From: Polytrichum commune
Lineage: Eukaryota; Streptophyta; Polytrichopsida; Polytrichales; Polytrichaceae
Length of the DNA: 64,000 bases
Assembly: GCA_950295325.1 (NCBI GenBank)
Contig: OX485806.1
Location: 58,151,169-58,215,168 of the forward strand
Reading direction: 5' to 3'
In this document: piece by piece, positions 24,381-46,519 of the stretch
Layout: every line of letters starts with the position of its first letter
How positions within the stretch are numbered: the stretch's first letter is position 1
The notes under the pieces: model-generated
Database searches by the model: none
The model's input: only the letters and a program-made list of their open reading frames with translations
What the model was told of the DNA's origin: nothing
Translations under genes and position numbers: made by a program

Positions 24381-24744
24381 GGCCCTCTGGAAGAATTGAG
24401 CCCGCTCCTACAAACACTCTGCCCAAATGTTTGGGTCATCCAAGTCCACAACAAAAGCTAACTTTTCCCGAATAGAACTTGGGAGAATATGCTCACGTCC
24501 ATACAATAACTGATACGGGTTGTAGGATGCCAAAGAGGCATGCCTACTAAATCGATAGCCCATAGCAATCCAAGGCAACATAAGATCCCAATCCCGGTGG
24601 CTTCCCCGAAGTAATCCATACTTCCTCAAGCCACATTTGGTTGTCTGAACAACCCGTTCAGCCAAGCCATCTGCCTCCGGATGATCTCGAGAGGTGGTGC
24701 GGTGATCTATGAGCACCTTAGTGCACAACTCCTCAAAAGTTTTC
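24381..24744 (-). pseudogene. Integrase catalytic core, C-terminal half (retroelement copy 1)
   Basis: The frame 24408-24728 contains HPEADGLAERVVQT, the segment with the third catalytic acidic residue of the DDE integrase core. The downstream part LPWIAMGYRFSRHASL and PYQLLYGRE is typical of gypsy integrases. The in-frame text continues upstream to about 24744 (KTFEELC), where it is cut by the R-B LTR. The HHCC zinc domain and the first two catalytic Asp residues are missing. A single TAG at 24408-24410 separates it from the C-terminal domain; reading continues in the same frame on both sides. Confidence 0.85.
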
Positions 24745-25680
24745 CTTGCAACCCTTGCTAGTTTTCCTTCACTTAGCTTGACCGCCTTTCCAACCTAGCA
24801 AGTGCCACGAGCGCTAACCTGCACATCCCACGCACATGCATGGTTAGCTCCCAAAACCGCGGACCTTCGAGCTCATGGCTAGGTCACCAAACCCTCCTAC
24901 ACATGCATTCGGGACTCTCCCCTTCGTAGGTAGCCAATGGCTAAGGTGGACTTCCATCCATGGAAGTCCACTCTTGAGTTGATCATCGTGTTGCCAAAAC
25001 AACACTACAACTACCCGGAGCACATTGCCAAGTATCCTCCGGGGGGGTCGGTCGGCTAAGCCGCCTCACCCATATAAGCCTCTAGGACTTTAGGCGGGGC
25101 CCCTACCCCACCATCAAGTATCCTTTTGTCTCTCTACAAGGGTTGGGGCCAAGTGGACATTTTCCCTTAGCCGCTGGGGCTGGAACCCCCCAGCAGCTTC
25201 AGACCACCATAACTTCTACATATGATGTCTGATGCTCTCAAGCGACCACTCTATCGTCACCTAATCTTTGCGTAGATGCCGATGGACCCCTCACTTGCCT
25301 CATTCAGGCAAGTATTGAGGAAGTTATGGCTCTTCAAACCTTGGCAGTCCCGGGCACCACTCCCAGGTCACTGCTGTCACAGGGTGTTGTCCCGGGACAG
25401 CGCCCCACTCAAATGGCCATATCTCCTAGCTAGCACCTCCGATCGAGGTGTTCCTTAGCATTCTAGAATTCCACCACCATAAGCTACTCATAACTTATGG
25501 CCTTACCCTCATGACTCTTAGTCCCCGTGGGTGAGAGGCGTTCTCAACGCCCGGGGCCCTCACCCATGCTATGAGTACTTGGGCCCTCTCACCAATGGCG
25601 CCACAAGTCCTGGGTGTCACTGCGGGGTCCCCCTTGTGCCCATGGTGTTGCGGGCACTCCTCATGGAGAGGTGCGCGACA
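24745..25680 (-). mobile_element. R LTR copy R-B, 5'-truncated, fused to the methyltransferase-like gene
   Basis: Follows the R LTR from 'ttgcaacccttgct' to GTGCGCGACA at 25680. The usual TGTCG start is replaced or missing. The left neighbour is broken integrase, the right neighbour is exon 8 of the ParB/methyltransferase-like gene, and no target duplication is seen, so this junction is a rearrangement and not a clean insertion. It carries the hairpin pair ACTTGCCT/AGGCAAGT. Confidence 0.85.
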
Positions 25681-25855
25681 ATCGCCATATCATGGGCATA
25701 GATAGGCAAAGTGAAACCCATGGTGGGAGTACCAAACACATCCGCTCCAACGCCAAGTCTGAAAAAAACCACAAGAATTGTAAGAAAGAGTATGAAAAGT
25801 GTAAAATTTGAATGGACAAGGAAAATAAGCGAAGAAGGTCATCATACTCACTTAC

Positions 25856-27388
25856 TGCGAGGGCTTTGGCCTCGATTGCTTCAAGGCCGGCGGCCTCTTC
25901 TGCGTGCCTTGTGAAGCCTGCGTGGAAGCAACAACTATGGATGGAACCTTCACCGTAGGCTTAACACTCTTAAGAGGCTTAAGGACTCGGTTGAAGGTGT
26001 CCTCATCCTCCTCAAGAGCAACGATATGGCGCCCAAGCTGCCTGCATGCATGGATAGAAGTCCCTGTTGCGGAGGAAATGGTAGCAAAGGGAAAAAAAAA
26101 AACTTAGAAATTGAAAACTAGAATATGTTGGGAAGTGAATTAGGACATACCAACGCCTGCATTAACGTCCACCACAACCTGTCCAATGTCCGTAGTGGCC
26201 ATGATCAAGGAGGACATGAAATAAATATCTTTCTCCCGGGGACCCCGCCAAGCTTTCGAGCCGTCCATGAGAGGAGTTGCGGTATAATTCATAATGGCAT
26301 CATCCATGTCGAGCTCAATGCCAAGAGCCTTGAGCTCATTGGCATCGCAAAGGCAAAATGACGAGTGCCGGGGCCGCTTATCAAGGTCGGATCCAATTGT
26401 TTTCGTGGCACGAACAAGTAGTACAACTTGGAAGAGGTTGGTGGTCTTGTCCTTATGCTTAGCTGAATGTAGGCGAAGACGGTTGATTCCCAGCCACTCC
26501 TTGAAGATGGTGAACCCAAAAGCAGCGAAATGGTCCTCAATGCTCTCCCTGAAGTCACCATTGTCATCTGGATGAAAGAGGAGGAGAGCTCCATCGTCAT
26601 GCAGGATCTCGTCCGCAAAATCGAAGAGTTCACCAATAAAATCGGGATTTAATGCATTCCAGGAAAGTACACTATAGGAGGGATCGGAGACATTGGGCAC
26701 GGGCAGGTTCTCAGGGATGTCAGCAATGACAAGATCAGCCATGCCCACATCTGACCTCGTGACGCCTAGAGCTCTCTTAGGATGGGAGGGTGGAAGAAAA
26801 AGAATGAACTCCGAAACCTCCTGAAAATGACGACGTTGATGGAGAATGGAGGCATTCAAGATGCATTCTAAAACAACAGGAGGACGCCTAGCAGATGAAA
26901 GAACGGGCGGTGGAGGCGGCCTGGACAGAGTAGGTACTTGACTAAGAGTTGCAGTGGATGCAACAGCCGCCTCAGGTGAAGCAGGAGGATCATCCTCCAC
27001 AGTCTTGAGCTTCCTCGCGCGCTTTTTCAGTGAAGACTCGTCTTGAGTCGCACGCTTCCTCCTCTTGGACTTCTGAGTGTTGGCCTCATCGACAGTCGCA
27101 ACAACCTCGTCCGCCTTCGGAAGCTGACTGTCGAGGAGAACAACCTCATCGCTTTGAAAAGGAGGCTCTCCACCGGAGAGCCGAATCTTCAAGGCCGCCT
27201 CCTCATCCGGTTGCCACGTCCTCTTACATTCCAAGTACCAGCAACACTTGCGGAGATGCGGGAGGGAGAAGTAGTACTTTTGAAGCGGGGAAAAAACGAA
27301 GGTGGGCGAAGAGGAATCTGACCATGCGTCTAGAAATGGAGGGAGCTTCTTCAAATCCTTCTTCTTGAATAGCTCATGTTTGATGTAC
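25856..27388 (-). CDS. Exons 6-7: beta-type N4/N6 DNA methyltransferase-like domain
   Basis: After a basic, Lys/Arg-rich stretch (KSKRRKRATQDESSLKKRAR, a likely nuclear localisation signal) and a Pro-rich linker comes DLVIADIPENLPVPN, the position of the catalytic (D/N/S)PP(Y/W) motif IV. FADEILHDDGALLLFHPD follows, then the strand FQVVLLVRA. The SAM-binding motif I comes last and spans the exon 6/7 junction: VVVDVNAGV in exon 6 and GTSIHACRQLGRHIVALEED in exon 7. Motif IV before motif I is the order of beta-class N4-cytosine/N6-adenine methyltransferases. The catalytic PPY is not kept (ADIPEN), so activity is doubtful. It may be a degenerate enzyme or a binding-only relative. The C-terminal tail is Lys/Pro/Gln-rich. 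Confidence 0.6.
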
Positions 27389-28129
27389 CTTCACAACCAA
27401 GTGAGGCCAATCAGCAACTTAGAAAACACATGGGTTGATATGAATGAAGAAAACAATAGATGTGTTAACTAACGTACCGAAAAATTAATCGCTTGACAAT
27501 GTTGTCACCGCCTTTGACATCCTTCCACCACGTCCCTTTGCCGTATATATTTGACCTTGAAAAGTGACCAAAGAACGCCTTATCCCATAGACAGATTCGC
27601 CACTTCTCCAAGTACTCCGGCAATGAATCAACTTCCACGTCTCCGTCAAGCCCAACCAATGCATTTAGTATATCGGGTATCTCCTTGACCGCGGCCTCCT
27701 CTAGCTATGGATAAATTCAATGCCAAGATAAGAATTGGCACAAAATGAAGAGTTGAAAGGTAAAGAAGGATAAGGAATATAAACGTACCCCCGCCCAGAA
27801 CGCTGCTTTATTGAGCCAAGGTTTCAAGGTGTCCTTGCTTGCTGGACTTTTGGGAAACCGGATAGCTTCACGATTGAAACTTCCACTATTCCACCACTTT
27901 AGCCAACGGACTTTATAATCTGGCTCCATAGCAGCTGTGGCAATGAGTTGCAATTTCTCCAATGTCATCTCAATCTTCTGAGAATGGTGGGCGCTATAAT
28001 GCCTAGTAATCTGAAACAAATGCAATCAACATAGAAGGCGAATTAAATTTAAGAATATATACCGAGAAAATGCTGCACAATATGCGAGCAATACGGAAGG
28101 TATAATTCCGAGGGTGAAAACACAGAAAT

Positions 28130-29226
28130 TACCTCATCTTGGAACATCAGACCTTTTAATCAACGCCGTCCACCTAGAAATCCAGCAATTGAAACCTTTC
28201 ACCCTCTTCTCATCAGATCATAAACCACCACTAACTAACTTAGGTGGACCTCAGGGCCTCTCTCCCTACTACCTATAGAGCATACAACCACATATTACAC
28301 ATTCAGGCCCTCACATCAGACCTCTATTCAGACCTCCCTAGCCAAGCCGAACAGTCATAAACCACCATTAACTATCCTAGTTGGCCCTCAGATTACTCGA
28401 TTCCCCGAGCACCCAGAAAATAAAAATAAAAATAAAAACCTTTTTGAGGTTCTGAAGGAGGCACCCAAAGGGTCTGTCGGATCCGACAGACCATTAGGCC
28501 CCCCCCCACCAGACCTCGCAAGCATCCACCTATGGATTTTATATCCACCAATCTAACCTTACCCCCCTCTATTCAGACCTATGACGATCTTACCTCTAGA
28601 GCATACAACCAAATATTAATCATTCACACCCTCACATCAGACCCCTCAAGCTACTACATTTCCAGCATACTAACAAAAATTAAACCTTACAGCCCTCATT
28701 TCAGACCACTCAAGCTACTACCATTCCAGCATATTAGCAAAAATTAAACCTCACAGCCCTCATTTCAGACCACTCAAGCTACTACCATTCCAACATATTA
28801 GCAAAAATCAAACCTCTCAGCCCTCATTTCAGACCACTCAAGCTATTACCATTCCAGCATATTATCAAAAATTAAGCCTCACAGCCCTCATTTCAGACCA
28901 TTAGGGCCCTCACATCAGACCTCTATTCAGACCTCACTAGCCAAGCCGAAAAACCATAAACCACCACTAACTAGCCTAGTTGGCCCTTAGTTACTCAATT
29001 CCATGTGCACCTAGAAATCCAACAATTGAAACGTTTCACCCCCCTCTCATCAGACCCTCAAACAAAACATTTCAGCCATAAAACACCACTAACTAACCTA
29101 GTTGGACCTTAGTTTACACGATTCCCTGAGCACCCAGATCTCAGAAATTAAAAAAAAAAAACATATGTGAGCTTCTGTGGGATGCACCCAATGGTCTATC
29201 GGATACGGCAGACCAAGAGAAATTAC
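28130..29226. repeat. Intron 3 filled with S repeats and a 64-bp minisatellite
   Basis: The 1.2 kb intron between exons 3 and 4 consists mainly of family S text, such as 'gccctcacatcagacctctattcagacct', 'cataaaccaccactaac' and 'aggttctgaaggaggcaccc'. A 64-bp minisatellite starts CCCTCATTTCAGACC at 28693, 28758, 28821 and 28885 (periods 65, 63, 64). Other S copies lie just upstream of exon 1. Confidence 0.8.
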
Positions 29227-29504
29227 CTCCTCTAGGAACTGTTTTCCGAGGGCCGGGTTTGCGATCGATTGTTGCTTATTAAACTTGTGCCCAAGTTCCT
29301 CAGTCATCTTCTTTATCACAACGTCCAATACTTCACCCAACCCGTTCCCTGACTGCTCCTCAAGAGGCATTTCCTCTTTGTAGATTTGGGCTGCCTCATC
29401 TACCGCATTGGCTATCTCTTGCTGAACATGTATGCTCAATTGTTAGATCATGACTAAGAGTAATGAATGCGAATTAGAAGGTTGAGGAATTTGGAGTGAC
29501 TTAC

Positions 29505-30517
29505 ATTGAATATGAAGGACACCATAAGATCATGGGTCAGCGGGTACCAAGGGCTCTTAGGGCCTCTGCTCTTGCATGCTTGGAATTGCGACTCGGTCAA
29601 TAATGGTTGGTAGTAGCTAAGATCATACTAACCGTATTTTTGAATGCGGTGTAGAGTGTGTACGAGGCTAGTTTTAACGTGCACGGTCTGGTTAGCCCTG
29701 TTGCGGTTGAGAAAAATGCCATTAGATACCAATCATAAAATGAAAGAAACTAAGATTTGAAAAAATATAATACTTACTTGTTGATGTCATGCATTGCGTT
29801 AAGGACATCCCCACGCCCACCCGTTGTGTCGAGGACGACACATTCTGGGCAACCATGCTTCTCGTACCAGAGTGCATCATCCTTGTGCTCTGATTCGATA
29901 CACTCTTTCCATGCAAACAAACGATGATTACCATCATAGATAAAGAACATACATCCACTGAGGCTCATCAAGTCCTTATCCGCGCGCAAAAAAGATTCAA
30001 ACTTATCATTTTCTGCACCCCATAGCTCTCCCCATTCACGCCTGTCTTTCGCCGAAATGAATCGATTATCTCCAGACTCATTTGTAGTAGATACATACAA
30101 AGTGGAAGATCCAGCTTGGTATCCAAATTGAAATGCCGCCATGAGCTTTGTAACGTCGTTGCGGAGGGTTGGGCGAACCAATGGCATGTGAATCAACCTG
30201 CAGAGGGGGATTCTCATGAAGGACTTTTCCACCGGTTGTATCCTCATGCCCTCAACAACTAAGAAGCTATCTTTATTTAAATTGTGGCGAATCCAATACT
30301 CCATTGCATGAACACCCACATCCGACTCTGCAGGGGATTTGCAAAGGGGCTTCCCAGGTGTCTCGGGTTCGCTACTACCGGGTGTAAGCCCAGTAGTTTC
30401 AGCACATGACAACGGAGACACTTGCTCCTTATGCTCCTCAATACTAAGGGATGACCCACCGCCAATGCGAACCCGAACATCCAATGACTCTCCATCCTCA
30501 ACCATCTCAACGATCTC
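29505..30517 (-). CDS. Exons 1-2: ParB-like (DGNHR) domain
   Basis: Exon 1 begins with a low-complexity acidic/Pro/Ser stretch. A folded region follows that starts near VVEGMRIQPVEKSFMRIPL and ends with MFFIYDGNHRLFAWKECI. The segment hydrophobic-DGNHR-xx-A is the pattern of the ParB/sulfiredoxin-like superfamily (DGERR/DGNHR box with a preceding beta strand). In bacteria and phages ParB-type domains are found at the N-terminus of DNA methyltransferases, which fits the rest of this gene. Exon 2 continues the fold (TVHVKTSLVHTLHRIQKYG, then a TAG, then YDLSYYQPLLTESQF). The donor at 29777-29776 and acceptor at 29700-29698 are canonical. The ParB assignment is by motif and could be wrong; a plant-specific fold with a similar box is the alternative. 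Confidence 0.5.
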
Positions 30518-30567
30518 CTGACAAGAAATTTCTTGCACACATGAGAAGCAATCAAGTGAACAAAGGC

Positions 30568-31096
30568 TGCATCAGACCTCGCAAGCATTCACCTATGGAT
30601 TTTATATCCAGAAATCTAACCTTACCCCCCTCTACCTAAAGAGCTAACAACCACATATTAGACATTGAGGCCCTCACATCAGACCTCTAAACAGACCTCC
30701 CTAGCCAAGCCGAACAGCCATAAACCACCACTAACTATCCTAGTTGGCCGTCAGCTTACTCGATTCCCCGAGCAACCAGAAAGAGAAAATTAAAAAATAA
30801 AACCTTTTTGAGGTTCTGAGGGAGGCACCAAAAGGGTCTGTCGGATCCGACACACCATTAGGCCACCCCACCAGACCTCGCAAGCATCCACCTATGGATA
30901 TTAAATCCACCAATCTAACATTAGCCCCCTCTATTCAGATCCCTCTCACTCCTACCTATAGAGCATAATACCACATATTACACATTCAGGCCCTCACATC
31001 AGACCTCTAAACAGACCTCCCTAGCCAAGCCAAACAGCCATAAACCACCACTAACTAACCTATGTTGCCCTCAGCTTAGTCGATTCCCTGAGCAAC

Positions 31097-31131
<35 letters not shown>
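30568..31131. repeat. S repeats (two ~295-bp units) ending in a 34-base A run
   Basis: CAGACCTCGCAAGCATYCACC occurs near 30576 and near 30870, giving two head-to-tail units of about 295 bp of the same family as intron 3. The second unit ends in an uninterrupted run of A from 31098 to 31131. The position just 5' of exon 1 suggests they lie in an upstream intron of the ParB/methyltransferase-like gene. Confidence 0.75.
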
Positions 31132-31136
<5 letters not shown>

Positions 31137-31139
31137 TTG

Positions 31140-32673
31140 ATAAAACCAAGAAACTTCTTAGTTGTGGGCTTGTCCGGGCGGGGACAAGGTGATGGCGCGT
31201 GCTCATAAAAGTGCTACCCGCGAGCTAACGAGAGTTGGTGCATGGGAATCATGAACCCATGTCTCGAAAGAGCAAAGTGAGAACCGAGTCGGGCGGGACT
31301 TGGCATCACCCCCGTGCGATCGAGGCGTGGCTTAACAATGGAAAGCCATCTCGGAGTTGCAACCGAGATAACTTAGTGGAAGCGTTGAGGTCTCGCCTAG
31401 ATGTGTCATGTTAGGCTAGTGGAGCCTAACGGGGGGAGGCCCCAAAGGAGGGGCAACCCAAGTGAGTCCCAAAGTAGGTGGGTCTAGTGTAGGTTAGGTC
31501 CTTGGAGGAGAGATCCCAGGTCGCTAACGGACCACCTAGGAATGACACCTTTGGGACTATGCCAAATTTGAAGATGCATTGTGGGGGTCGCGCCCTAAGG
31601 TAAACACAATGCCGCACCATAGAGGATGACAACTTGAGAATTGGTGTGCCGACTACGAGTATAGTCGATGAGGGCATCGACTCTGTTTGGTGGGGGTGAG
31701 TGTCGCGCACCTCTCCATGAGGAGTGCCCGAAACACCATGGGCACAAGGGGGACCCCGGAGTGACACCCGGGACTTGTGGCGCCGTTGGTGAGAGGGCCC
31801 AAGTGATCCTAGTGTGGGTGAGGGCCCCGGGCGTTGGGAACGCCTCCCACCCACGGAGACTAGGAGGCATGAGGGTAAGGCCATGAGCTTTGCGTAGCTC
31901 ATGGCGTGGTGATTCTAGAATGCTCAAGAACACCTCGAGCGGAGGTGTGAGCTAGGAGTTATGGCCATTTGAGTGGGGCGCTGTCCCGGGACAGCGCCCT
32001 GCTACAGCAGTGCCTGGGAGTGATTCCCGGGACTGCCAAGGTTCAAACAAGAATAACTTCCTCAAGACTTGCCCGAATGGAGCAAGTGAGGAGTCCATCG
32101 GCATCTACGTGAAGCGTAGATAAAGATGGAGTGGTCGCTTGTTTGTATCAGACATGATACAAGGAAGTTATGATGGTCTGAAGCTGCTGGGGGCTTCTAG
32201 GCCCAGCGGCTAAAGGAAAGTGTCCACTTGGCCCCAACTCTTGGTGGAGAGACAAGAGGTTGGTTGACGGTGGGGTAGGGGCCCCGCGTAAAGTCCTAGA
32301 GGCTTATATGGGTGAGGTGGTGTGGCCTCACCCACCCGAGGCCGAACGGCAAGGCCTCCATGGGCATTGGCCCATTGTGAGGCCATAGTTGCCTAGTATG
32401 GTTCGGGTTGTTGTAGTGTTGCTCCGGCAATGCGATGATCAACATGGGATTGGACTTCCATGGATGGAAGTTCACATCTAGGAATGGGTTACCGATTAAG
32501 GGGTGAGTCCCGAAAGCAAAGTAGGAGGGTTGGTTCCCTCCTATGAACTATAAGGTCCGGGGTAGGAGGAGCTAATCATTAGCATGGCGGAATGCGAATG
32601 GTTAGCACTCGTAACCTTTGCTAGAATTGGAAATTGGCAAGATTGTCAAGGGGGGCTAGCAAGGGTTGCGACA
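31140..32673 (+). mobile_element. Truncated 3' end of an R element (R-C): 560 bp internal plus LTR
   Basis: 31140-31700 matches, in reverse orientation, the region next to the R LTRs at 53.8-54.4 kb. It ends with the purine tract GGTGGGGGTGAG directly before the LTR (31701-32673, TGTCGCGCACC...TTGCGACA). This is therefore the 3' end of a plus-sense R element cut off on its left inside a 'cctttttga/taaaacc' junction with the S repeat. Flanks GTGAG and GCAAT differ, so there is no target duplication. The right flank is broken RNase H of the methyltransferase element. Confidence 0.88.
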
Positions 32674-34000
32674 GCAATAGCCCATACCGCTGCCAATGCT
32701 TCTCCTTCGTAGGACGAATAATTAGCCTCCGTCGTGTTATTGCTTCGCAAAGCGTAAGCAACAACATACTCCTGGCCGAAATCATCCTTCCGAGTGAGAA
32801 CTGCTCCCAAACCCAATGAACTCCAATCCGTATGCAACTGGAAGGATTTGGAGACATCCGGACGTCGAAGCACTGGAGCAGCACCCAGTTTCTGCTTCAA
32901 TGTCTCAAATGCCTGTTGTTGCTCACGACCCCAAGTCCAAGGTTGGTCCTTGCTTGTGAAAATGGTGTGAGGCTTGGCGATCAAGCTAAAGTTCTTGACG
33001 AACCGACGATAGTTATTCTCCAAGCCCAAGAAAGCAAGAAGTCTCGGCACATTGACCGGTGCTGGTATCTTTTGCAAGGCGTCCACCTTAGCTTGTTGCA
33101 CCCCAAGACCTCCTGGAATAATAATATGACCTAGATATGGAAGTCGGTCATGGAAAAACTTGCACTTGCCATGGTGCAAGCGCAATCCCCACCGCCGCAA
33201 TCGCTCAAAAACGGCTTGAAGATGCTTTACATGCTCCTGTGGTGTTTTGCTGAAAATGATCACGTCATCAATGTAACACCGAGCAAAAGGCAGGCCAGAG
33301 AGAACTTGGTCCATCACTCTCTGAACTCAGTAGGCGCATTCTTGAGGCCAAATGGAAGAAACTTCCAATGGTATAGTTGATCCTTCCCATCATGATCAAC
33401 TCCCCAAAATGCGGTTTTCACCCGATCTCCCGTAAGTAATGGAAGTTGGTGATATCCGGATCTCAAGTCCAAAGTGCTAAAGACCCGAGAAAATCCGATG
33501 GCATTGAACAACTCCTCCAGGATCGGCATGGGATACCGATCCGACTTGGTCTTCCGATTAATTGGACGGTAATTCCCACACATATGCTTCTCCGTCCAAT
33601 TGCCAAAGATGTCCTTCTTTGATGGCATAACCGTAGCACAGGCATACTCCCCGTTGGAAAGTTCGATTAACCTTGCTGCCAAGAGCTTTCGGCAACGAGC
33701 CTGAGCGCCAATCCGCTCGGAAATACAGAGCCTATAAGGTCTCAAAAAAATGGGATGGTCGTCCTCCAACTGAATGTGGATGGGTTTTCCTTTATATCCT
33801 TCAAGATCATGAAGGCTAAAAGCAAAACATTTACGGTACGAGCAAATAAATGCTCGTACCTTCCGTGCCTCAGCACCAGTGAAAGCTGTGTAAAAATGTT
33901 GAGCTCGAAGCTCCTCCATCACATGCTGCTCGAATTGAAAAATTTGTTCGGCTTCTCCAATCATGGCGTGAATTCCCTCCTCCATGGGTGTGGACCGATG
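32674..34000 (-). pseudogene. Reverse transcriptase and RNase H of the methyltransferase retroelement, copy 1
   Basis: The frame up to 34000 and the next (32646-33317) together carry a gypsy RT: YRPINRKTKSDRYPMP, FSTLDLRSGYHQLPL with the first catalytic Asp, FLPFGLKNAPTEF, and CYIDDVIIFSKTPQEHVKHL with the YxDD box. The thumb LLAFLGLENNYRRFV follows, then RNase H start FQLHTDWSSLGLGAVLTRKD and YSSYEGEALAAVWAIA. The two frames meet near 33315, where a frameshift separates them. RNase H stops at 32674, where R-C begins, so its catalytic end is missing. RT copies the element RNA into cDNA; with the breaks this copy is inactive. Confidence 0.93.
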
Positions 34001-34946
34001 TGTCGCAGCCCTTGCTAGCCCCCCTTGACAATCTTGCCAATTTTCAATTTTAGCAAAGGTTACGAGCGCTAACCATTCGCATTCCGCCAAGCTAATAATT
34101 AGCTCCTCCTACCCCGGATCTTATAGTTCATAGGAGGGAACCAACCCTCCTACTTTGCTTTCGGGACTCACCCCTTAATTGGTAACCCATTCCTAGATGT
34201 GGACTTCCATCCATGGAAGTCCAATCCCATGTTGATCATCGCTTTGCCGGAGCAACACTACAACAACCCGAACCATACTAAGCAACTATGGCCTCACAAT
34301 GGGCCAATGCCCATGGAGGCCTTGCCGTTCAGCCTCGGGTGGGTGAGGCCACACCACCTCACCCATATAAGCCTCTAGGACTTCACGCGGGGTCCCTACC
34401 CCACCGTCAACCAACCTCTTGTCTCTCGACCAAGAGTTGGGGCCAAGTGGACATTTTCCTTTAGCTACTGGGCCTAGAAGCCCCCAGCAGCTTCAGACCA
34501 TCATAACTTCCTTGTATGGTATCTAATCATAACAACCAACCACTTCATCCTCATCTACGCTTCACGTAGATGCCGATGGACTCCTCACTTGCCCCATTTG
34601 AGCAAGTCTTGAGGAAGTTATGCCTATTTGAACCTTGGCAGTCCCGGGAATCACACCCAGGCACTGATGTACCAGGGCGCTGTCCCGGTACAGCGCCCCA
34701 CTCAACGATTGAGATGTTCTTGAGCTTTCTAGAATCACCACGCCATGAGCTACGCATAACTTATGGCCTTACCCTTGTGCCTCATAATCTTCGTGGATGG
34801 GAGGCGTTCCCAACACCCGGGACCCTCACCCACACTAAGATCACTTGGGCCCTCTCACCAACAGAGCCACAAGTCCCGGGTGTCACTCCAGGGTCCCCCT
34901 TATGCCCATGGTGTTTTGGTTACTCCTCATGGAGAGGTGCGCGACA
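34001..34946 (-). mobile_element. Solo LTR of family R (R-F), target duplication CGATG
   Basis: TGTCGCAGCCC...GCGCGACA, 946 bp, flanked on both sides by CGATG (33996-34000 and 34947-34951). The second retroelement copy has the uninterrupted equivalent site near 44225-44240, proving insertion into the methyltransferase element between the methyltransferase and RT regions. Confidence 0.96.
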
Positions 34947-36395
34947 CGATGTGTCCCCTGACCAGAGTCCTCTACCCCCAGAAACAACTATTGGTCACCA
35001 CGATGCCTTTGCAATGAAAGGCATAAAGCAACAATCCACACCATGGTATGAAGATCCATGGCTTGGCCCAACACGAAGCGTCGTTGACCCTCAGAAAGGT
35101 CGGGAGCTGCGGTGGTGCCAATGCGGAATCCCATGGCACGCTCTTGCTCGTCAGCCAATGGTTGGGTGTTGTTTTCGGTGTGAGCATCCTACACCATACC
35201 CGCCCCTAATTGCGGAAAGCGAATGACTGTGGAAATGTCATAAACGTGGGAAAAGCCCGCCGTGGTGCCCTCACTTTGTTGACCAATGCCAACCGGGGCA
35301 AATCATCTCGAACAACCGGCAAAGAAATTCAGTTCGGATCCAAGATGTCATCCACCTTTTGATCTAAAGGTGGAGGCACTACAGAAAATGCTGTAGCTAA
35401 AGTAGATGACGGTGTGAGGTTGGTCCAAATCCATCAAGGCCTGTGGGCATAAGAACCAATGCTCGCGGCATCCACAAAAATGGGATCTCCAAGGTGTTGA
35501 CGAACATAATGATCACCTTCCAACACCTTGTCCCAAGAGTCTCCCAACAAAGGTACATTATCAAAAATATACACTGGAAGGGAAGGTTGGTGGGAAAACC
35601 ACCACTGCATGAGGCGGATGAGGTCCCAAAATAAACTGGACTTGGGATCCTCTAGACCTTGGCCCGCTCTAGCACGTGAATGGCCCTGGCATGGCCATCC
35701 CACAATCACCATATCCACTGGACCCAAGTGTCGTAAGTCGGCGTCACGAAAGAGACGTGAAAAACATCCACGAATGGCAGTCGGGTGTAACTGCTGTGGA
35801 TACATCACCATCAACTGGTGAAAATGATGACGAGCCACACGGGTGGACACTTGAGAGTTGTCCACATAGACATACCGCTTGACCGTAAGGCCAGCCTCCA
35901 ATACGGCTGCTAATCCTGCGCCAATGCCCCCAAACAGCTCCACCAAAGTAATCCCAGTGTCTGGAGGGCGCCACAAAATGGGGCGTGCCAATGTGGATAG
36001 ACTATCCGATATGACTGGTGTGGTAGAACTGAGAGAGAGGACAATGTCCTCACACCGTTGGAACAGGCTGGAGGAATCACGCCACGGAGGTAGAGGGTCC
36101 TTAGGATAGCGTACCAAGGAATGCCTAGGTGCCATCTCTGGTGGGTCTTCAACATCCCCCATGAATGCCAATGACTCCTCCAATAATGCGGATCCATAAG
36201 GCAATGTATATAGCACTGCATCCAAAAACCATGGATAATGGTTCGATGGTGGCGGGCGCTGCAAAGGCCACATGAATAAGTTCCCTACGGCCGTCTCCAG
36301 CTGACCAACCTGATCAGATCCAAGCCTCTTCAGTCCAGTTGTCCAAACCAAAGCCAAGGGGGTAAAGTGTTTGCTGACCAACTAAAATGTCATAG
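34947..36395 (-). pseudogene. DNMT3/DRM-like cytosine-C5 DNA methyltransferase domain within the retroelement polyprotein, copy 1
   Basis: The 315-residue frame 35434-36381 holds motif I ITLVELFGGIGAGLAAVLEAG (SAM binding), then RYVYVDNS. Motif IV is VDMVIVGWPCQGHS with the catalytic Cys in Pro-Cys, followed by GLEDPKSSLFWDLIRL. Motif VI is VYIFDNV, with Asp where Glu is usual in ENV. Motif VIII, GSYAHRP-stop-WIWTNL, is interrupted by TGA at 35434-35436. Beyond further stops the frame continues as VRAPRRAFPTFM, then after a shift ERAMGFRIGTT and RRFVLGQAMDLHTMVW (motif IX/X-like) to about 35000. The motif order and spacing resemble the DNMT3/DRM group more than DNMT1 or CMT. It lies between protease and RT in the same orientation and is read through as part of the pol frame. 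Inactive here; its presence in two copies shows it belongs to the element. Confidence 0.88.
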
Positions 36396-36403
36396 TTGGT
36401 CGC

Positions 36404-36899
36404 CACGGGTAGATCACTTAGTGCATTTTAAAAACGACGTGCGGCATAATATAGAGAGGATAAAAATCATTTGAATTAAAAATTATAAAGGAATTCCAAA
36501 TAATGAAGGGGCCATTAAATGTAGATAATCCCATTATAAGTAAGTTAGATGGACATAAAACGTGGGCCATTATTTTTGTAAAATTAATATAGGGGCTGAA
36601 GATAAGGATCCTAGAAGGTATCTTTAGTATGGTATATAAATGGATTTAGGACTCACTGGGGTAGATGATAATTGGGATTTCCGTCTGTCCAAAAATGGAT
36701 TAAAATGAATGTAGAGTACAAAATATTGCAGTGACTTGGACAATATAAGTAATGGAAGGGTGCAAACAAATGGGCCATTTTTGAAATTTAAGTAATTATA
36801 GGGAGGCTTTAATTCAGCCCTTGAAGGTAAATAGCCCCAAAACAAAAAACCCCTAGCCGCACGTGGTGCACAAAAATGCCTTAGAGTGATCTACTCGTG
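36404..36899. mobile_element. hAT-like MITE with 8-bp target duplication TTGGTCGC
   Basis: 496 bp, AT-rich, no coding content. The ends are imperfect inverted repeats: CACGGGTAGATCACT at the left and AGTGATCTACTCGTG at the right. TTGGTCGC occurs at 36396-36403 and 36900-36907, an 8-bp duplication as made by hAT transposases. The second retroelement copy lacks it, joining protease straight to the following region. Confidence 0.92.
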
Positions 36900-36907
36900 T
36901 TGGTCGC

Positions 36908-37660
36908 ATCCGTCACCGCACACCTGAGAAGAAGAGGTGCGGGTGAATATCCAGGCTTTACTTGGAAGCTAAGCTGTAATGGCTCCCGGGTATAACTAGT
37001 GGTCCGCTCCACGTGGCCAATAGATGTGACGATGGTAAATGGGCATGGAGCCAAGTCGTAGGCTGTCAACCGCAATGCCTGCGCCAATTTTTTGCCGATC
37101 ATAACAGGTTGTGTTCCCGAATCCATCATCACACACTATGGAGCAACTCGAATAGGGTTGCCACCAGCCCGACTGACCATGAAAATGCTAGAATCATTCA
37201 CCATCCGTACAACGCCAGGTCGAATGCCTCGACGCTCACGAGCAGGTCGAGCAGCGACATCTGAAAGATAAGCAATGCTTGCAGAGGCTGGTGAATCATG
37301 AGATGAGGTTGGCAGTTGGCCATCTAAGTTGTGTGCGTCAAAAGATGCAATGGCCTCCGCCGCAAGCCTCGCTTGTAGTTTGGCGGCTTCCGTAGGATCC
37401 TCCGTGGTAGGAATGTCCGCGGTGGCTTGAGCCACAATCAAAGAAGACGGGGATGCCTTTCCCTCCAGAATCCTACCTCCTAGGTGAAAAACCTTAGCGG
37501 GTTGGACATCCCATGACGACCACTCCATTGCTGTGAACAAAGGGGTGTGCAACACTTTGGATGCCAAAGTGTGCACCACGTCGGTCTCCGGATTTGAAGC
37601 CTCCAAGCTCGAATTACGACCACTAATAGATTGGACAGCATCAGCCAATCCAAAAGACAA
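36908..37660 (-). pseudogene. Aspartic protease region of the methyltransferase retroelement, copy 1
   Basis: Retropepsin-like: VMMDSGTQPVMIGKKL carries the catalytic D-S-G, followed by PFTIVTSIGHVE, REPLQLSFQV and LLLRCAVTDATN. Across the MITE the protein continues into YDILVGQQ. Upstream, 37136-37660 is a linker frame between gag and protease. A TAG lies three codons before the VMMDSG segment in this copy and at the same place in copy 2. The protease would cut the polyprotein that includes the methyltransferase. Confidence 0.85.
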
Positions 37661-37672
37661 TGGAGGACGTGC

Positions 37673-39084
37673 CTAGCCAATCTGATCCGCAGGACCATTG
37701 TTCCGAGCGCGTAAGTTGTCCACAGACTCCCTTGTGGTCGAAGGCATGGCTTGTGACACGGTTTGAGCACGTGCCACCGTTGCGGAACTCACCACATGTC
37801 TAGAAGCTCCGAACATATAATAATCTGGAGTGGAAGAACTAGCCTTAGTTCCGGAGGTAGACGGTGAGTCCAAAATTTGGCTGGATGACGCCAAAGTTTT
37901 GAACCTCTCCTCCAAGACACCAATCTTTGCCTCCAATGTCTTTTCCCGTTCGGAAGGACGTTTCTCTGGATGGAGAGCGAAGCAGTTCTCCACCGCATGA
38001 TTGTTCCGCCCACAATGGGAACACTTCAACTGTTTGGGTAACTAATTACCCGCCCCCTTCGCCGAGCCCTTAGCAGGAACAAATGGTTTCAGCTTTGGAG
38101 TAGCGACGGTCTGGGCTTGCTTTTGCTTCGAAGTACAATCCTTCTTAGTATGGCCCGCCTGCCCACAAGACCAACAATACAAGGTCTTGTCCACCTCTGC
38201 CTCTGCCAACCCCGCAGCTGCAACCAGAACCTTCCGGGATTTGCTAGAATCCACTAGCATAGACACCAAGTCAGTGGCATCGTGGTGACACAAGTTACGA
38301 TCACACTGCTCAACAATGGCGAAAGCTTCCGCAAGTGTCGCTCGGCCACCATGATCCATGATGATCCTGGACAGCGCCAAGTCAAGAGGCGTTTGTTAAT
38401 CTTTGACAAAAACACCTTCACCAATTGACTTTCCGCGAACACACCTCCAAATTCTCTGACAAACCTCATGTACATGGTACGAGGTGTGTCATCTTTCTCC
38501 CGTCGAAAGTTTTGGATATGCTGCATTTGATCACGGCGGAAGCCTCCATATTCCTCCAAATGGAGTTGGAATTCCTATAGAGGATCAAAATCCGGCAGAG
38601 CTCCTAAAGACGCTAATGCCGCCTGGGTGGCCTGGGCACAACGTGACAGTGGAATAATGAGATTCGAAGTACTCGCCGCGGCGGGAGGAGGACCCGCAGC
38701 CCTCGGCTCACCAGAAGGAGCTCCCTCCACATCCACCACATAACCTCCCTTCGGTACCTCTGACTTAACCTCAAGAACGGCCATCAAATTGGAAGTTGTG
38801 CCTTCTTTCAATGCGGACACCAACTCAACCCGAGTCTTCCAGTACCGCTCCACTTGGCGTAGCTCCATCCAATGAGCATCCGTCCATTGCTCATAGGTCT
38901 GGAGAGCTTTGTGCTCCAAATCCTATGGCTGAAGCTCGAACGCATACCAATCGTTGAAGTCGGTATTGCATTGACGCTTCTCCCTCATCCATGTTCTGAA
39001 CCAAATTTTCCAATCTTGCAGGGAAATAGTTCCCGCTTGACCAAAAAATCGGTCCCGGATGCCGCCTTGCGTCTCCTCCTTCAT
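37673..39084 (-). pseudogene. Gag of the methyltransferase retroelement, copy 1
   Basis: The start is taken at the ATG at 39084-39082 (reading MKEETQGGIRDRFFGQAGT). The capsid-like part includes WKIWFRTWMRE, HIQNFRREKDDTPRTMYMRF and VKVFLSKINKRLL. Two CCHC zinc knuckles of form CX2CX4HX4C follow: CWSCGQAGHTKKDC (about 38160) and CSHCGRNNHAVENC (about 38015). Interrupting TAG codons are at 38923-38925 and 38575-38577, another lies between the two knuckles, and there is a frameshift near 38390. Gag packages the element RNA; the paired knuckles bind RNA. A short coiled-coil-like stretch (SEREKTLEAKIGVLEERFKT) comes after the second knuckle. Confidence 0.85.
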
Positions 39085-39132
39085 CTCGTCAAAGGATCCC
39101 ACCCAAAGGACGTGAGACCGAGTGGCAGTCCG

Positions 39133-39156
39133 GTTTAGGATTTAGGGTTTAGGGTT
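39133..39156 (+). repeat. Telomere-like TTTAGGG units
   Basis: GGTTTAGGATTTAGGGTTTAGGGTT-type sequence, about three TTTAGGG-like units, in the 5' untranslated region upstream of gag. Short runs like this are common near plant 5' ends and do not indicate a telomere. Confidence 0.7.
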
Positions 39157-39253
39157 ACCCGTGAAAAGCCTCGTCGGGTGCTACCACGGGTTCACTGTCC
39201 AAAAGGTGCGAAGATCGACCTTGCGATGATGCCGAAGACGGAAATCGATAATG

Positions 39254-39273
39254 TTGGCTCTGAGTTGTAACCA
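39254..39273 (-). promoter_or_regulatory. Candidate primer-binding site (initiator tRNA-Met-like)
   Basis: The minus strand reads TGGTTACAACTCAGAGCC. The usual plant primer site for initiator tRNA-Met is TGGTATCAGAGCC; the last 8 bases TCAGAGCC and the leading TGGT match, with extra bases between. The position between the LTR-like region and gag is right. Weak but plausible. Confidence 0.4.
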
Positions 39274-40620
39274 TAAACCCGCAATGGATTTGGTCACTGG
39301 AGCCAAACAAACTAAACTAATGTGGTATTAGGGTAAAGACAACCTGCACCTGCAACCACCACCAAATCTTATGGTCTGCTGGTCATCAATCCAACCTCAC
39401 CATAAGGAAATACAAGCACCGTCCACTTGGTGCACACACAAGGGTTTCGACGGTCATTACTCCGACCTCACCCCCACGATACCCTATCACAAATTACGAC
39501 AACACAAAATGGGGCAATGTTAGAAGACTCCAACACAATAACCCGCCACGGGGGAAGGTACCACAACAAAATACAAGGAACAATGCAATAATAGTTTTGG
39601 ATCCTCTTCCCCAAAACAACACTTAAACAAAAATTAAAAGCGACCGCAACCAACTTGCACCCGCCTGCAGTTGGTGGTCACAAATCAAAGGCCTTGTGCT
39701 TAGGAAAAAAAATTTGCATAAGCACATCTCTCATCTCCCCACTACTACCTAAAAATCCCTCCATACAAAAATGTCGAGAATATGTGTTGACAAATACAAT
39801 TTGACCCTAATAATAATTTATTTGGGGCCGAACAGAAATCCCACATGCCATCCAGTCTCCAATGACACCCCACTTGGAAATTTTGTACAACACAACCCCC
39901 AAAAGAAATCCCAAGTATAATTTTCTCAATCCCTAAGATTTAATTTCTTACAGACAAAAGGAATCGTAGAAGTGGAAATGAAACATAAATTATTTAATTT
40001 AGGGGAACCCAAATATGTAACTAAAATAAATATTTAAAATAAAATAAAATAAGAACGAAGACAATTTAATATGTATCCGGTTGGACGTGCAAGTACTCGA
40101 AGCTCAACCGACTACGCTCACAAATCTCCCCCATTACTGCCCCGCGTTCGGTACGCAACTGCAGCTGACTCTCCCTCTGCTGGCAGGCAAGCAAACGCCG
40201 CCACCGCAGGAAGCCGCAGGCAGGCTCACCTGCAAACCAGCTGCTGGGCAGAGCAGGCAGCGGAGGGAGGCACGCCGCCTCCCTCTTCTACACTTAAAAT
40301 TTTTATTTTATTTTTTTGAGAAAAATTTGATCCATTTGAAGATCACAAATGCTTGTACACTTCCCACTTCACAAATTCATGTTTGTGAGCAACCAAATGG
40401 TACAAAATTCCGTGGGAAATTCAACAATTTCTCTCCACAATTCAAAATGATGTGCACACATCACAAGCACACATTTTTCCTCCTTGTTTCTCCGCGAATC
40501 CGCAATGTTTGTTTTTCTTCATTCCAAAATCTCGCAACCACTTGTCCTCACACTCTTTCTCGAGTGTTGGAGCTCAAGATTTGAAGAAAAGAGAAGGAAT
40601 CATGCACATTCTTGCCAAGT

Positions 40621-40955
40621 GAGAAGGAAGAGAGTAGAACACTCATAATAGCTCTAAATCTCTCTTCAAATGCATACAATTAATCAAGCTATCTCTCACT
40701 CCACCATGGGAGAATCCAAGAATGCAAGAAAGGGGAGAAGAACTCAAGATTTATTGCAAAAACATGCAATCTACACCTCACACAAGCTCTCTCCACACAA
40801 TCACTCATAATACTTGACTTGGCAAGAATGCCAAGCCAAGGAGGAGGCTCCTCACTTAGGAGCCTCACTTTCCAAAACTAAGGTTCATCCATCCAACTCT
40901 AAATGGATGAAGTCCAACGGATAAGGTGCGGCCGCCGACGCCGCATACCGCGACA
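40621..40955. repeat. Terminal block B, right copy
   Basis: Same orientation and about 90% similar by eye to 23160-23481, starting GAGAAGGAAGAGAGT and ending CCGCATACCGCGACA. It forms the right edge of the 17.9 kb insertion and is followed by CACC and the resumed R-G LTR. Confidence 0.85.
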
Positions 40956-41299
40956 CACCTGACGCCGAACAACAGAACCTCCATGAGCATTGGCCCACCA
41001 TGGGGGCATAGTTGCCTAGTATGGTTCGGGTTGTTGTAGTGTTTTTATCGCAACATGATGATCAACTTAAGATTGGACTTCCATGAATGGAAGTCGAGAT
41101 CTTATCATTGGTTACCGATAAAAGAGTGAATCCTGAATACAAGTGTAGAAGGGTTGGTCTCCCTCCTATGAACTAAGAGGTCTGCTGTATGGAGAACTAA
41201 TCATTAGCATGGCGGAATGCAAAGGCTTAGCACTCGTGAGCCTTGTTAGAATTGAAAAATGACCAAGTTAGTGAAGGGGCGCTAGCAAGGGTTGTGACA
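40956..41299 (+). mobile_element. Right part of solo LTR R-G
   Basis: Resumes the R LTR at 'cctgacgccgaac' and ends GGTTGTGACA at 41299. It is followed by TTCAT, identical to the five bases before the left part at 22421-22425. This confirms that everything between is nested. Confidence 0.9.
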
Positions 41300-42009: not shown

Positions 42010-43740
42010 AAAAAAAATCCATGATTACAAATCTCCAATGGTGTTTTCAATTTTCAAACCAAGGCATGCAATCATGCAAGACGTTTTATCTAGAATTCCC
42101 AAGTAAGCATGTTTTACAATTTTTTGCATGCAACATGGAATGTGTCCAGCGTATGCCAAAATGGCCAAGTTCCTCATGCACTTGCCGCACCAAGGAGGCC
42201 CGCTGATCCGGTCTAGGAATAATGCGCCTTGACCCGTCCAACCACAATCAAAATAACAAATTGTTTTCCAACGGAACCTTGTAATTTGATGTCCAATCCT
42301 ATCATTTTCCATCGCCAAGATAGACAACGTAAAGGTCCCTAGCTGAAGCTTACGCAATACAGGATGATCCTCTAATATATCCGCAATATCTTGAGGTCGA
42401 TCAATCTCATCCTCCGAGCATTGTATCAGAACCTCAGCAGCAGTGCTAGAAAACAAAGTGAGGTAAGCAGTTGCGTCTCGATTATAATCCCCATGCCACT
42501 TGGCTTCGATCAAATCCTCATCCGAAGGACTTGAATTGCGTGAGGGTAAATTTTCATCCAAGTTGGTAATCCCAACACGGTGTATCACCTCAAAGTTGTA
42601 CTCTTGGAGCAATAAAGCCCACAAGGTGAATTTGCCAGTAAGCTTATCCAACTCCATTAGCCACCATAAAGGTTGATGGTCAATCACTAAAATAAAGAGT
42701 TGATCATAGAAATATGGCCAGAAATGGGCAATAGTCCACACTGTCACCAACACTTCTCCCACGTAGGATGAATAATTGGCTCCCGCAGTGTTATTGCTTC
42801 GCAAAGCATAAGCAAGAACATACTCCCGGCTAGGTTCATTATTCTGAGTGAGAACTGATCCGAGAGCCAATGAACTCTTGTGCGTATGCAACGGAAGGGT
42901 TTGGAAACATCCAAATGTTGAAGCATTAGAGCCGCACCTAGTCTCTGCTTCAATGTCTCGAATGCGTACTCTTGCTCATGAAAATGGTGAAAGGCTTGGC
43001 GATCAAGCTAAGGTTCTTGACAAATTGACAATAGTAATTCGCCAAACCCAAGAAAACACAAAGTCTTGGCACATTGATTGGTGTCCGGATCTTCTCCAAG
43101 GTGTCCACCTTAGTTTGTTTTACCCTAAGACCTTCTCGGATAATCATATGACCCAGAGATGCTAGTTAATCATAGAAAAACTTGTACTTACCATGGTGTA
43201 AGCGCAATCCATACTACCACAACCATTCAAAAAGGGTTTACAGATGCCTCACATGCTCTTGTGGTGTCTTACTGAAGATGATTACGTCATCAATGTAAAA
43301 CCAAGCAAAAGGCAAGCCAAAGACGACCTTGTCCATCAATTTCTAAAACTCCATAGGTGCATTCTTGAGGCCAAATAGAAGAAATTTCCAATGGTACAAC
43401 TGATCATTCCCATCTTGATCAACTTCCCAAGATGCGGTTTTCACTCGATCTCCCACAAGTAATGAGAGTTGGTGATAGCCGGATCTCATGTCCAAGGTGC
43501 TAAAGACTTGAGAAAATCCAATAGCATCGAATAACTCCTTTGGAATTCGCATGGGATATCGATCCAACTTGGTCTTCTAGTTAACAAGATGGTAATCTTT
43601 GCACATCCGCTTCTCTGTCAAATTGCCAAAGATATCCTTCTTCGATGGCATAACTGTACCATAAGCATACTCCCCGCTAGAGAGTTTGCTCAGCCTTGCT
43701 CCCAAGAGCTCTCGGCAACGAGCTATGATACCAATCCTCT
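42010..43740 (-). pseudogene. RT, RNase H and integrase zinc-domain remnant, retroelement copy 2
   Basis: RT pieces: DRYPMRIPKELFDAIGFSQV, FSTLDMRSGYHQLSL, LFGLKNAPMEF and the thumb LCVFLGLANYYCQFV. RNase H starts at KSSLALGSVLTQNNEPSREY and continues YSSYVGEVLVTVWTIAHFW and LFILVIDHQPLWWLME. The latter is the part lost from copy 1. Beyond it NLAILAYAGHI probably marks the HHCC zinc domain of integrase. The text stops near 42010, so catalytic integrase and PHD finger are absent. Several frameshifts; the YxDD area is disrupted. Confidence 0.88.
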
Positions 43741-44099
43741 CGGAAACACTGAGCTTATAAGGTCTCTAAAAAATAAAATGGTCTTCCTCCAACTGAATGT
43801 AAATGGGTTTTCCTTTATAGCCTTGAAGATCCTGAAGGCTAAAAGCAATACACCTACGGTACAAACAAATGAACACTCGTACCTTCGTGCCTTAGCACAA
43901 CTGTGATGAGGGCCTAATCCCAATGGCCAATCATCAAACTCTTTGGTTTTTTTCTCCACTAAAAGGGGACCACCCGATGTTGACACACACTAACAACTAT
44001 TGAAAAGAGCGGGCATTAACCATGCCTCCAATGTCAATGCCAGCAATAGAGTTTGGCCTCTTTTCATCACCACCAATATCTAATGATGAAGCCACCGCC

Positions 44100-45890
44100 G
44101 GAGGCGGAGAAGCCAAAGCAATATAAATTCACTGAGCTTGAAGTTCTTCCATCATGTATTACTCGAATTGAGAGAATTTTTTGGCTTCTACAACCATGAC
44201 CTCAATTCTCTCCTCCATGGATGTGAACCGTTGTGTCCCCTAACCAGAGTCATATACCCCAGAAAAAACAATTGGTCATCACGATGTCCTTGCGGAGCAA
44301 GGCATAAACCAACAGTCCACACCATGGTGTTAAGATCCATGGTTTGGCCCAATACAAAGTGTTGTTGGCCCTCAAAATGGCCAGGAATTGTTGTGGTGTT
44401 TGTGCAAAATTCCATGGCACGCTCCCATTCGTCAGCCAATGGCTCGGTATGGATTTTGGTGTAATTGTCCCACACCATGTCATCGAGGAATGCAAATTAT
44501 TGTGGAAAAGTCATAAAGGTGGGCAAGGCCCTCCATGGTGCCCCCACTGAGGTCGGTGGGAATAAAAACTAAGGCCCGCGGCATCCAAAAAAATGGGATC
44601 ATCAAGGTGTTGACAAGCATAATGCATTCCTTCCAACACCTTGTCCCAAGAGTCCCCCAACAGAGGTACATTCTTGAATATGTAGGAAAAAGTTGGTGGG
44701 CAAACCACCACTGCATGAGCCGGATGAGATCCCAGAAAAAAACTAGACCTAGGATCCTCCAACCCAAACAAAACATAAACCAACAGTCCATACCATGATG
44801 TGAAGATTCATGGCTTGGCCCAATACAAAGCATAGTTGGCCCTTAGAAAAGCCATAATCTATTTTAGTACTAGTGCGGAATCCTATAGCACGCTCTTGTT
44901 CGTCAACCAATGATTCGGTTTGGGTTTTGGTGTAAGCATCCCACACCATACGAAACCTTCGATCGCGAGCCACCAAGGCCAGCAACATTCACAAGAATAG
45001 AATCACCAAGGTGTTCACAAACATAATTTTTGCCTTCCAACAGAGGTGCATTCTTGAATATGTACCCTCAAGGGTAAGGTTAATGGGCAAACCACTAGTG
45101 CATGAGCCGAATGAGGTCCCAGAATTGTCTAAACCTGGGTTCATCTAAGCCTCGGCCTACTCCAACACGTGAGTGGCCCTGGCATGGCCATCCCGCAATC
45201 ACCAGATCCTCCACATGACCCAATTGTCGTAAGTTTTCCTCACTCATATGGGTAACATCATGAGGGAGATGTGCAAAACACCCATGAATGGCAATTGGAG
45301 ATAATTGCTAAGGGTAACAGACCATCATTTGGTGGAAATGATGATGAGCCACATGGGTGGACATCTGAATGTCCACACATAGACAAATTGTCAAACCATG
45401 AGGCCAGCTTCCAACATAACCGCCAATCTTATCCCAATGCCCCAAAAAATTCTACAAAAAGGATCTTTTCAACTGGCAGACGCCACAAAATGGGATGTAC
45501 AAACGCCGTTGAAGTATTTGGTATAAGTGGTGTTGTAGAACCAAGAGAGAGGACAATGCCCTCACACCTCCAAAATAACTCGGCGGAATCGTGCCAGGGA
45601 GGAAGAGGATCCTTAGGATGGCACACCAATGCACCCGTTGGTATTATCTCTTGTTGAACCTCAACACTTCCTATGAATGCCAATGACTGTTCTTGTGGAT
45701 CCTTAGGGCAATGTACCGACGTACAATAGCACTACATCCAAAAACCATGGATATTGAGGCTATGGTCGCGGCCGTCGCAAATGCCACAGGGATACGTTCC
45801 ATGCGGCCATCCCCAGCCGACCAACTTGGTCGGATCCAAGCTTTCTCAATCTAGTTGTCCAAACCAAAACCGAAAGGATAGAGTGTTTGC
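44100..45890 (-). pseudogene. DNMT3/DRM-like cytosine methyltransferase domain, retroelement copy 2, with partial internal duplication
   Basis: Motif I-like ILFVEFFGALG is in the frame 45429-45683. Motif IV GWPCQGHSR is readable on the minus strand at about 45170-45200, with the catalytic Pro-Cys kept. Motif VI is YIFKNVPLLGDSWDKV (Lys in place of Glu). Motif VIII is near SHRPQW. The IX/X-type segment occurs twice: VLGQAMNLHIMVW (44749-44988) and VLGQTMDLNTMVW (44188-44478). The segment around IRLMQWWFAH is also doubled (44480-44833 and about 45000-45160). About 500 bp of the 3' half has therefore been tandemly duplicated and then decayed. It lies between protease and RT as in copy 1. Confidence 0.82.
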
Positions 45891-45893
45891 TGA

Positions 45894-46519
45894 CTAACAC
45901 ATGAGAAAAAAAGGTGCGGGTGGATCTATAAATTTCATTCGGAAGCTAATTTGTAATGGCTCCCGAGTATAACAAATATCCCATTCCACGTGGCCAATAG
46001 ATGTGACGATGGTAAATGGACAAAGAGCCAAATCATCGACCATCAACAAAAATTCATGGCCAAATCTTTTGCCGATCATAACTGGTTGTGCCCCTGAATC
46101 CTTCATCACATACTAGGTTGCTCCCAGTCCGACTGATTACTAAAATGCTGATATCATTCACCATACGCACGACTTCGAGTCGAATACATCGGCATTTGCA
46201 AGCTGGTCTAGCAACTACATAAAATAGATAAGTTGTTTCCGTGGATTTTGGTGAGTTACGACATGTGGTCGGCCCCCCGTCATCTGAGGTGAATACGTTA
46301 AAACACGCAATGGACTTTGCTGCAAGCCTTGTTTGCCGTTTGGCCGTCTCCTTAGGATCCTTAGTGGTAGGGAAGACAACGGTTGTTTGAGCCACAGTCA
46401 ATGAAGACAAGGATGCCTTTTCTTTCAAAATCCTACTTGCTAGGTGGAAAAATTTAGTCAATTGGATGTTGGGTGATGACCACTTTATTGTTGTGAACAA
46501 AGGTATATGCAACCTTGGA
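45894..46519 (-). pseudogene. Aspartic protease region, retroelement copy 2
   Basis: MKDSGAQPVMIGKRF with the catalytic D-S-G, then PFTIVTSIGHVEWDICY and REPLQISFRM, closely parallel to copy 1. The upstream linker frame runs to 46512 and is cut by solo LTR R-H. No MITE is present, which dates the MITE insertion in copy 1 after the two copies separated. Confidence 0.85.

Follow-up and report, generated by a model that had tools for sequence, protein, structure and literature searches.

We find that a dead member of a Ty3/gypsy retrotransposon family carrying its own cytosine methyltransferase lies in a 64,000-nucleotide stretch of the Polytrichum commune genome (contig OX485806.1, positions 58,151,169 to 58,215,168; hereafter the window). 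The minus strand of window positions 36403-34947 encodes a DNMT3-type cytosine-C5 DNA methyltransferase (DNMT), and the element around it, aligned to an open copy from the same genome, spans from its A1 repeat (40955-40621) to the end of its B2 repeat at 23054, also on the minus strand. The family is of a known kind, with split repeats around a gypsy core and a DNMT as in KnitGypsy-Dnmt3; what is new are the named relatives in Marchantia, Sphagnum, Calypogeia and Closterium, a stop codon of the leaky type, a PHD finger and the grouping of such elements in a reverse transcriptase (RT) tree.

The minus-strand frame at 35434-36381 (315 aa) matches Pfam DNA_methylase (PF00145) with an E-value of 8.3e-8 and 32.5 bits (cut-off 22), which bears out an earlier sequence-only reading that had placed a cytosine-C5 methyltransferase at 34947-36395, nearly exactly the remnant left between two inserts (34946-34005 and 36898-36404). 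Motifs I (LVELFGGIGAG), IV (GWPCQGHS) and VI (DNV, which reads ENV in sister copies) are followed by motif VIII (AHRP..WTNL), broken by a stop codon, and by a C-terminal third with motifs IX-X that continues in shifted frames to ~34990. The best PDB matches of the frame are DNMT3A and 4onj ('DNA methyltransferase'), presumably NtDRM. Of the label 'DNMT3/DRM-like' given in the sequence-only reading, the DNMT3 part stands, as the nearest profile is DNMT3 rather than DNMT2 and the predicted model has a DNMT3 fold. A DRM-like origin is ruled out, since the motifs of the element enzyme run from I to X (in the alignment, in the mapping of the profile onto DNMT3A segments in order, and in the predicted model), whereas DRM enzymes have motifs VI-X before I-IV; the DRM gene of this genome (locus L060) has the rearranged order, unlike the element.

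A search of the host assembly (407.8 Mb, 64 contigs) with PF00145 gave 353 candidates, and the 123 that were scored are all above the cut-off, both counts being lower bounds; at least one of the 123 is the host DRM gene, and in 19 of them the open frame around the match reaches at least 1325 aa, one of these frames containing a TAG within the match. Nine copies, like all copies here chosen by their DNMT domain, were taken in long stretches for layout. Among copies chosen in this way, none without the domain turned up, the outcome that the sequence-only reading had named as a refutation. The search for intact copies that had been proposed was rewarded, as ORF1 and ORF2 (open reading frames 1 and 2) are both open in five of the nine (C6:31.14, C5:8.79, C4:33.93, C6:16.20 and C5:29.75 Mb), and the remaining four carry a frameshift, stop or deletion. 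ORF1 holds Gag, a protease with weak Pfam matches below the cut-off, and the DNMT (1366, 1372 and 1386 aa stop to stop, frames split at a stretch boundary being summed from two pieces). ORF2 (1045-1048 aa) holds RT, RNase H, integrase and a PHD finger, with RVT_1, RT_RNaseH, H2C2 and rve in the order of Ty3/gypsy elements. An open copy reads A1 repeat, ORF1, in-frame UAG-CARYYA, ORF2 and B1-A2-B2, between 4-bp target-site duplications (TSDs). The proposed place of the DNMT between protease and RT holds as an order in sister copies, where it adjoins the protease and is followed by the UAG and then RT, but not as contiguity in the window, because two insertions with 9-bp TSDs flank the domain there. 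Likewise, the DNMT is a lasting part of a gypsy element, as had been suggested, but in open copies it does not lie in one unbroken frame with RT; it belongs to an ORF1 closed by an in-frame UAG.

ORF1 and ORF2 lie in one frame with this single UAG between them, and in 29 of 29 copies from two subfamilies (20 + 9, chosen by DNMT score) it is followed by CAATTA, CAGTTA, CAATCA or CAACCA, all of which fit CARYYA. A 30th copy, the older of two in the window, keeps the UAG (at 44.0 kb) with the hexamer changed to TTGTTA, and the younger window copy has lost the site. UAG-CARYYA is described as the tobacco mosaic virus readthrough signal in plants (PMC2754532; PMC4132726), and we predict that the UAG of the open copies is of this leaky type; the stop and hexamer consensus are the same as in tobamoviruses, where the signal sits in the viral replicase rather than in a retroelement (PMC2754532). 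Since candidates among rice gypsy elements are cited in the same source (PMC2754532), readthrough as such is not new to gypsy elements of plants. The 20 best relatives (P0001-P0020; proteins only, some of them partial gene models) stop 68-162 aa past the DNMT profile, consistent with what an ORF1 stop would give.

The PHD finger (PF00628) at the integrase C-terminus of ORF2 resembles those of CHD4, UHRF1, ATXR5 and KDM5, which are readers of unmodified H3. Moss chromoviruses carry a chromodomain as the chromatin-reading domain at this position; the element here carries the PHD finger instead, and a scan of two ORF2 proteins found no chromodomain (PF00385) at E 0.01, so the element is not classed as a chromovirus. 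The finger was found in 25 of 32 DNMT-bearing rows of the RT tree described below and in 3 of 68 others, some rows being truncated. The DIRS-like repeat arrangement, with A1 on the 5' side of the coding region and B1-A2-B2 on its 3' side, is present in six of the nine long copies and in the window copy; within those six, the A repeats are 99.3-100% and the B repeats 98-100% identical, and their insertion is recent on that account. No A/B repeat pair was found within the stretch examined for C6:31.14, C2:22.81 and C3:13.10, the first of which lay outside one repeat comparison. By eye, 4-bp TSDs flank seven of seven copies readable at both ends, window included; these and the rve integrase rule out membership in DIRS, whose elements use a tyrosine recombinase and make no TSD.

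KnitGypsy-Dnmt3 of the charophyte alga Klebsormidium nitens, the algal precedent to which the sequence-only reading had pointed, is described with DIRS-like repeats around Gypsy domains, a non-rearranged Dnmt3 and purifying selection on the DNMT (de Mendoza 2018, PMC5890265), and the family found here likewise has a Dnmt3 domain within a gypsy polyprotein. The algal DNMT is, by description, part of the Pol polyprotein ORF (PMC5890265), whereas here protease and DNMT share ORF1 and the UAG splits DNMT from RT in all 29 copies; because of this separation we class the window family as of the same kind as KnitGypsy-Dnmt3 and not as a member. The text of that paper, figure aside, makes no mention of a PHD finger. 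SymbioDIRS-Dnmt3 and SymbioLINE-Dnmt are also retroelements with captured DNMTs, but are DIRS and LINE elements, described as only distantly related to gypsy; SymbioDIRS enzymes are reported to methylate CG in yeast (PMC5890265).

Subfamilies A (the window type) and B were compared by NG86 estimates of nonsynonymous to synonymous divergence (dN/dS), with dS saturated. The ratio is 0.107-0.114 for DNMT (4 pairs), 0.031-0.035 for RT, 0.031-0.034 for integrase, 0.049 for the PHD finger and 0.46-0.54 for the stretch after DNMT (3 pairs each); dS was not computable for Gag, nor for most pairs of the protease and of the stretch ahead of DNMT. Nonsynonymous to synonymous (N:S) counts for DNMT variants present in at least two copies are 29:37 in B (17 copies) and 37:64 in A (12 copies), with no stops, against 107:34 (four stops) and 76:50 (five stops) for singletons. 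The corresponding RT counts are 17:27 with one stop (B) and 8:30 (A) for shared variants and 71:40 and 64:58 for singletons, and Fisher tests of DNMT versus RT shared variants give p of 0.69 (B) and 0.10 (A). These comparisons indicate that purifying selection maintains the DNMT domain, which, because shared and singleton variants differ in N:S and in stops, was kept while lineages moved and decays after insertion. C-to-T changes in the two window copies amount to 14 and 30% at CG, 14 and 28% at CHG and 8 and 17% at CHH, with one open copy assumed ancestral and pre-insertion differences included; they suggest that old copies were methylated.

Three protein searches with DNMT-bearing queries gave 37, 132 (best 120 used) and 163 (best 120 used) matches; named relatives are Marchantia polymorpha (13 in the 37-match search), Sphagnum, Calypogeia fissa, Closterium and 'Tetstr1', which we take to be Tetraselmis, and no Klebsormidium-named record is among the matches listed. 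(A scan of IMG/VR with the DNMT profile gave 28 loci of 29-43% identity, which, on the tabulated results only, we regarded as viral methylases and left unused.) The DNMT of the relatives has one of two places: upstream of RT, or after RNase H and ahead of integrase. In one gypsy clade (P0031, P0159, P0161-P0163, P0166-P0170 and kin) the second place goes together with a PHD finger. Among 40 relatives with DNMT and RT, 30 pass the RT-RNase H length filter, and with two copies from the genome they make 32 rows. In an RT tree with 16 hand-chosen rows of the 68 DNMT-less ones, a branch (93/92) separates all 32 from the others, and the 18 rows of the 'after RNase H' type form one clade (100/99*); the split holds with all 68 (SH-aLRT 93, quick method), although close kin without a DNMT may be missing, given that every search started from a DNMT-bearing query. 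In the RT tree the 32 sampled elements form one group, within which the DNMT would have moved once, later, from a place ahead of RT to one past RNase H. Separate captures at the two positions may also account for the distribution: in the DNMT tree, where the element enzymes come together (97/98*) relative to a pair of outgroups, each of them assembled from pieces, 17 of the 19 enzymes of the 'after RNase H' type cluster (99/59), but P0195 and P0196 fall outside this cluster on a long branch and the deep nodes lack resolution. The RT trees, on the other hand, need two changes in all.

A single reading, to which we assign a probability of about 0.6, joins the Gag-protease-DNMT frame, the leaky UAG, DNMT-rich particles, methylation of the element's own cDNA and PHD-steered integration. 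A minority of ribosomes would read past UAG-CARYYA into RT, RNase H, integrase and the PHD finger, and because the DNMT lies in ORF1, ahead of the UAG, particles would contain more of it than of RT. The packaged enzyme would methylate the element's cDNA no later than integration, giving each new copy host-like 5-methylcytosine (5mC) on arrival, and the PHD finger would guide the integrase towards nucleosomes whose H3 tail is unmodified. Of the roles we can propose for the DNMT, self-methylation of this kind is the likeliest. Several observations weigh against this picture. Relatives P0026, P0027, P0030, P0158, P0160, P0171 and P0173 have no stop between DNMT and RT, and the Marchantia gene models P0022, P0023 and P0028 also run from DNMT to RT in one frame, so only some members of the clade have the leaky stop; in P0027 and P0030 the integrase C-terminus is present, but no PHD finger was detected. 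The DNMT is under weaker constraint than RT (0.11 vs 0.03), and young subfamily-B pairs show 9N:3S and 11N:3S in DNMT vs 1N:15S and 2N:14S in RT, but relaxed selection in young copies, a hint from one copy compared with two others, is unsupported by the 17-copy tally. Host enzymes would explain the CG/CHG decay equally well, and the K. nitens relative gave no methylation in yeast, a result its authors deem inconclusive (PMC5890265).

Were the UAG an ordinary stop, with ORF2 produced by splicing or from an internal start, relatives such as P0026 would fit readily, but ORF2 follows directly in the same frame and CARYYA fits all 29 copies of two subfamilies saturated at silent sites, and we consider this improbable. 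Action of the DNMT in trans on host chromatin, methylating rival elements or the surroundings of insertions with less harm to the host, is unlikely, if the least so of the alternatives to self-methylation: many copies with selection on the domain and the CG/CHG-leaning decay of the two old copies speak for it, whereas a trans benefit is hard to select in a single element and the K. nitens methylome is reported as not odd (PMC5890265). About as improbable as the ordinary stop is a domain that acts on RNA, or as a nucleic-acid-binding part of Gag, with no DNA methylation. Its synthesis with Gag ahead of the UAG would suit such a role, as would a motif IV in which the residue ahead of the catalytic Cys is Glu rather than Pro (WECQ and similar), the case in 16 of 133 relatives, P0026, P0027 and P0030 among them; the Cys itself is present in all 133 of 186 relatives with a recognised motif (the search pattern required it), and the DNMT3 fold and profile noted above also argue against it. 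That a one-off host fragment was caught in a dead element could be imagined from the broken window copy hemmed in by insertions, but is rejected as next to impossible: DNMT and the same junction recur in 29 further copies, elements of Marchantia, Sphagnum and others also carry the domain, and it is under selection. Returning to self-methylation, we offer more tentatively, at somewhat under even odds, that one ancient DNMT3 capture founded a green-lineage gypsy clade with a 5mC writer and an H3-tail reader, that the writer moved once within the polyprotein, and that the window lineage tunes writer to polymerase by its leaky stop, with many methyltransferases per particle and copies that integrate self-marked.

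The window copy itself is no working element, a correction to the sequence-only reading, to which the PHD finger and the DIRS-like split repeats are also to be added; this copy carries frameshifts, the two flanking insertions and a ~215-nt deletion that removed the ORF1/ORF2 junction. Going by TSD length, we take the 36404-36898 insert to be Mutator-like. The older copy has a decayed DNMT at ~45897-44544. Related repeats or inserts occupy 34946-34005, 36898-36404, 31700-32673 and 22428-25686, two of them with 9-bp TSDs, and an array with 64-bp spacing lies at 28501-28905, with a related copy at 30863-31011. Minus-strand ORFs at 26140-27390 (416 aa) and 29774-30571 (265 aa) have no Pfam match at E 0.01; nor, at 0.01, has the minus-strand frame 61284-61829, by eye an integrase fragment of another gypsy element.

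Table 1. Features of the two element copies in the window.
Feature	Position	Strand	Remarks
4-bp TSD GGTG, 5' side	40956-40959		
A1 terminal repeat (5')	40621-40955	-	91% to open-copy repeat; 92% to A2 at 23481-23160
Decayed Gag (CCHC zinc knuckle) and end of leader	37692-39788	-	83% to open copy; zf-CCHC in 38042-38395
Protease region, decayed	36899-37690	-	86% to open copy
Small inserted element	36404-36898		9-bp TSD GCGACCAAC
DNMT3-type cytosine-C5 methyltransferase domain, broken after 35434	34947-36403	-	PF00145; 84.5% to open copy
Inserted element	34005-34946		9-bp TSD GACACATCG; relative at 31700-32673
ORF1 tail past DNMT	33883-34002	-	next ~215 nt deleted, leaky-type stop included
RT and part of RNase H	32674-33880	-	Pfam and alignment to open copy
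Nested repeats and other sequence	24740-32673		~0.97 kb of RNase H/integrase of window copy missing
Integrase C-terminal part and PHD finger	23874-24407	-	PF00628, E 5.3e-7
B1 repeat	23480-23589	-	
A2 repeat	23160-23481	-	
B2 repeat, element end CACGACA	23054-23159	-	
4-bp TSD GGTG, 3' side	23050-23053		
Older of the two copies, element of the same kind	42127-49345	-	70-81% to open copy by piece

DNMT-carrying retrotransposons have so far come from dinoflagellates and a charophyte alga, and in the literature, judged mostly by titles, we found no DNMT-carrying gypsy element reported from a land plant. PMC12344493 repeats the streptophyte and dinoflagellate cases and notes that charophytes also possess DRM; in the portions available, PMC5784723 gives five Marchantia DNA methyltransferases, none described in transposons, and PMC9289625, a screen of angiosperm elements, names no DNMT. 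The relatives found here extend this kind of gypsy element, so far described in an alga, to liverworts and peat moss, a wider distribution than had been reported. Surveys of plant DNA methyltransferase genes could be misled by copies of such elements. Marchantia is a transformable model, and because recent open copies exist here and relatives exist in Marchantia, the use of a DNMT to a transposon is directly testable.
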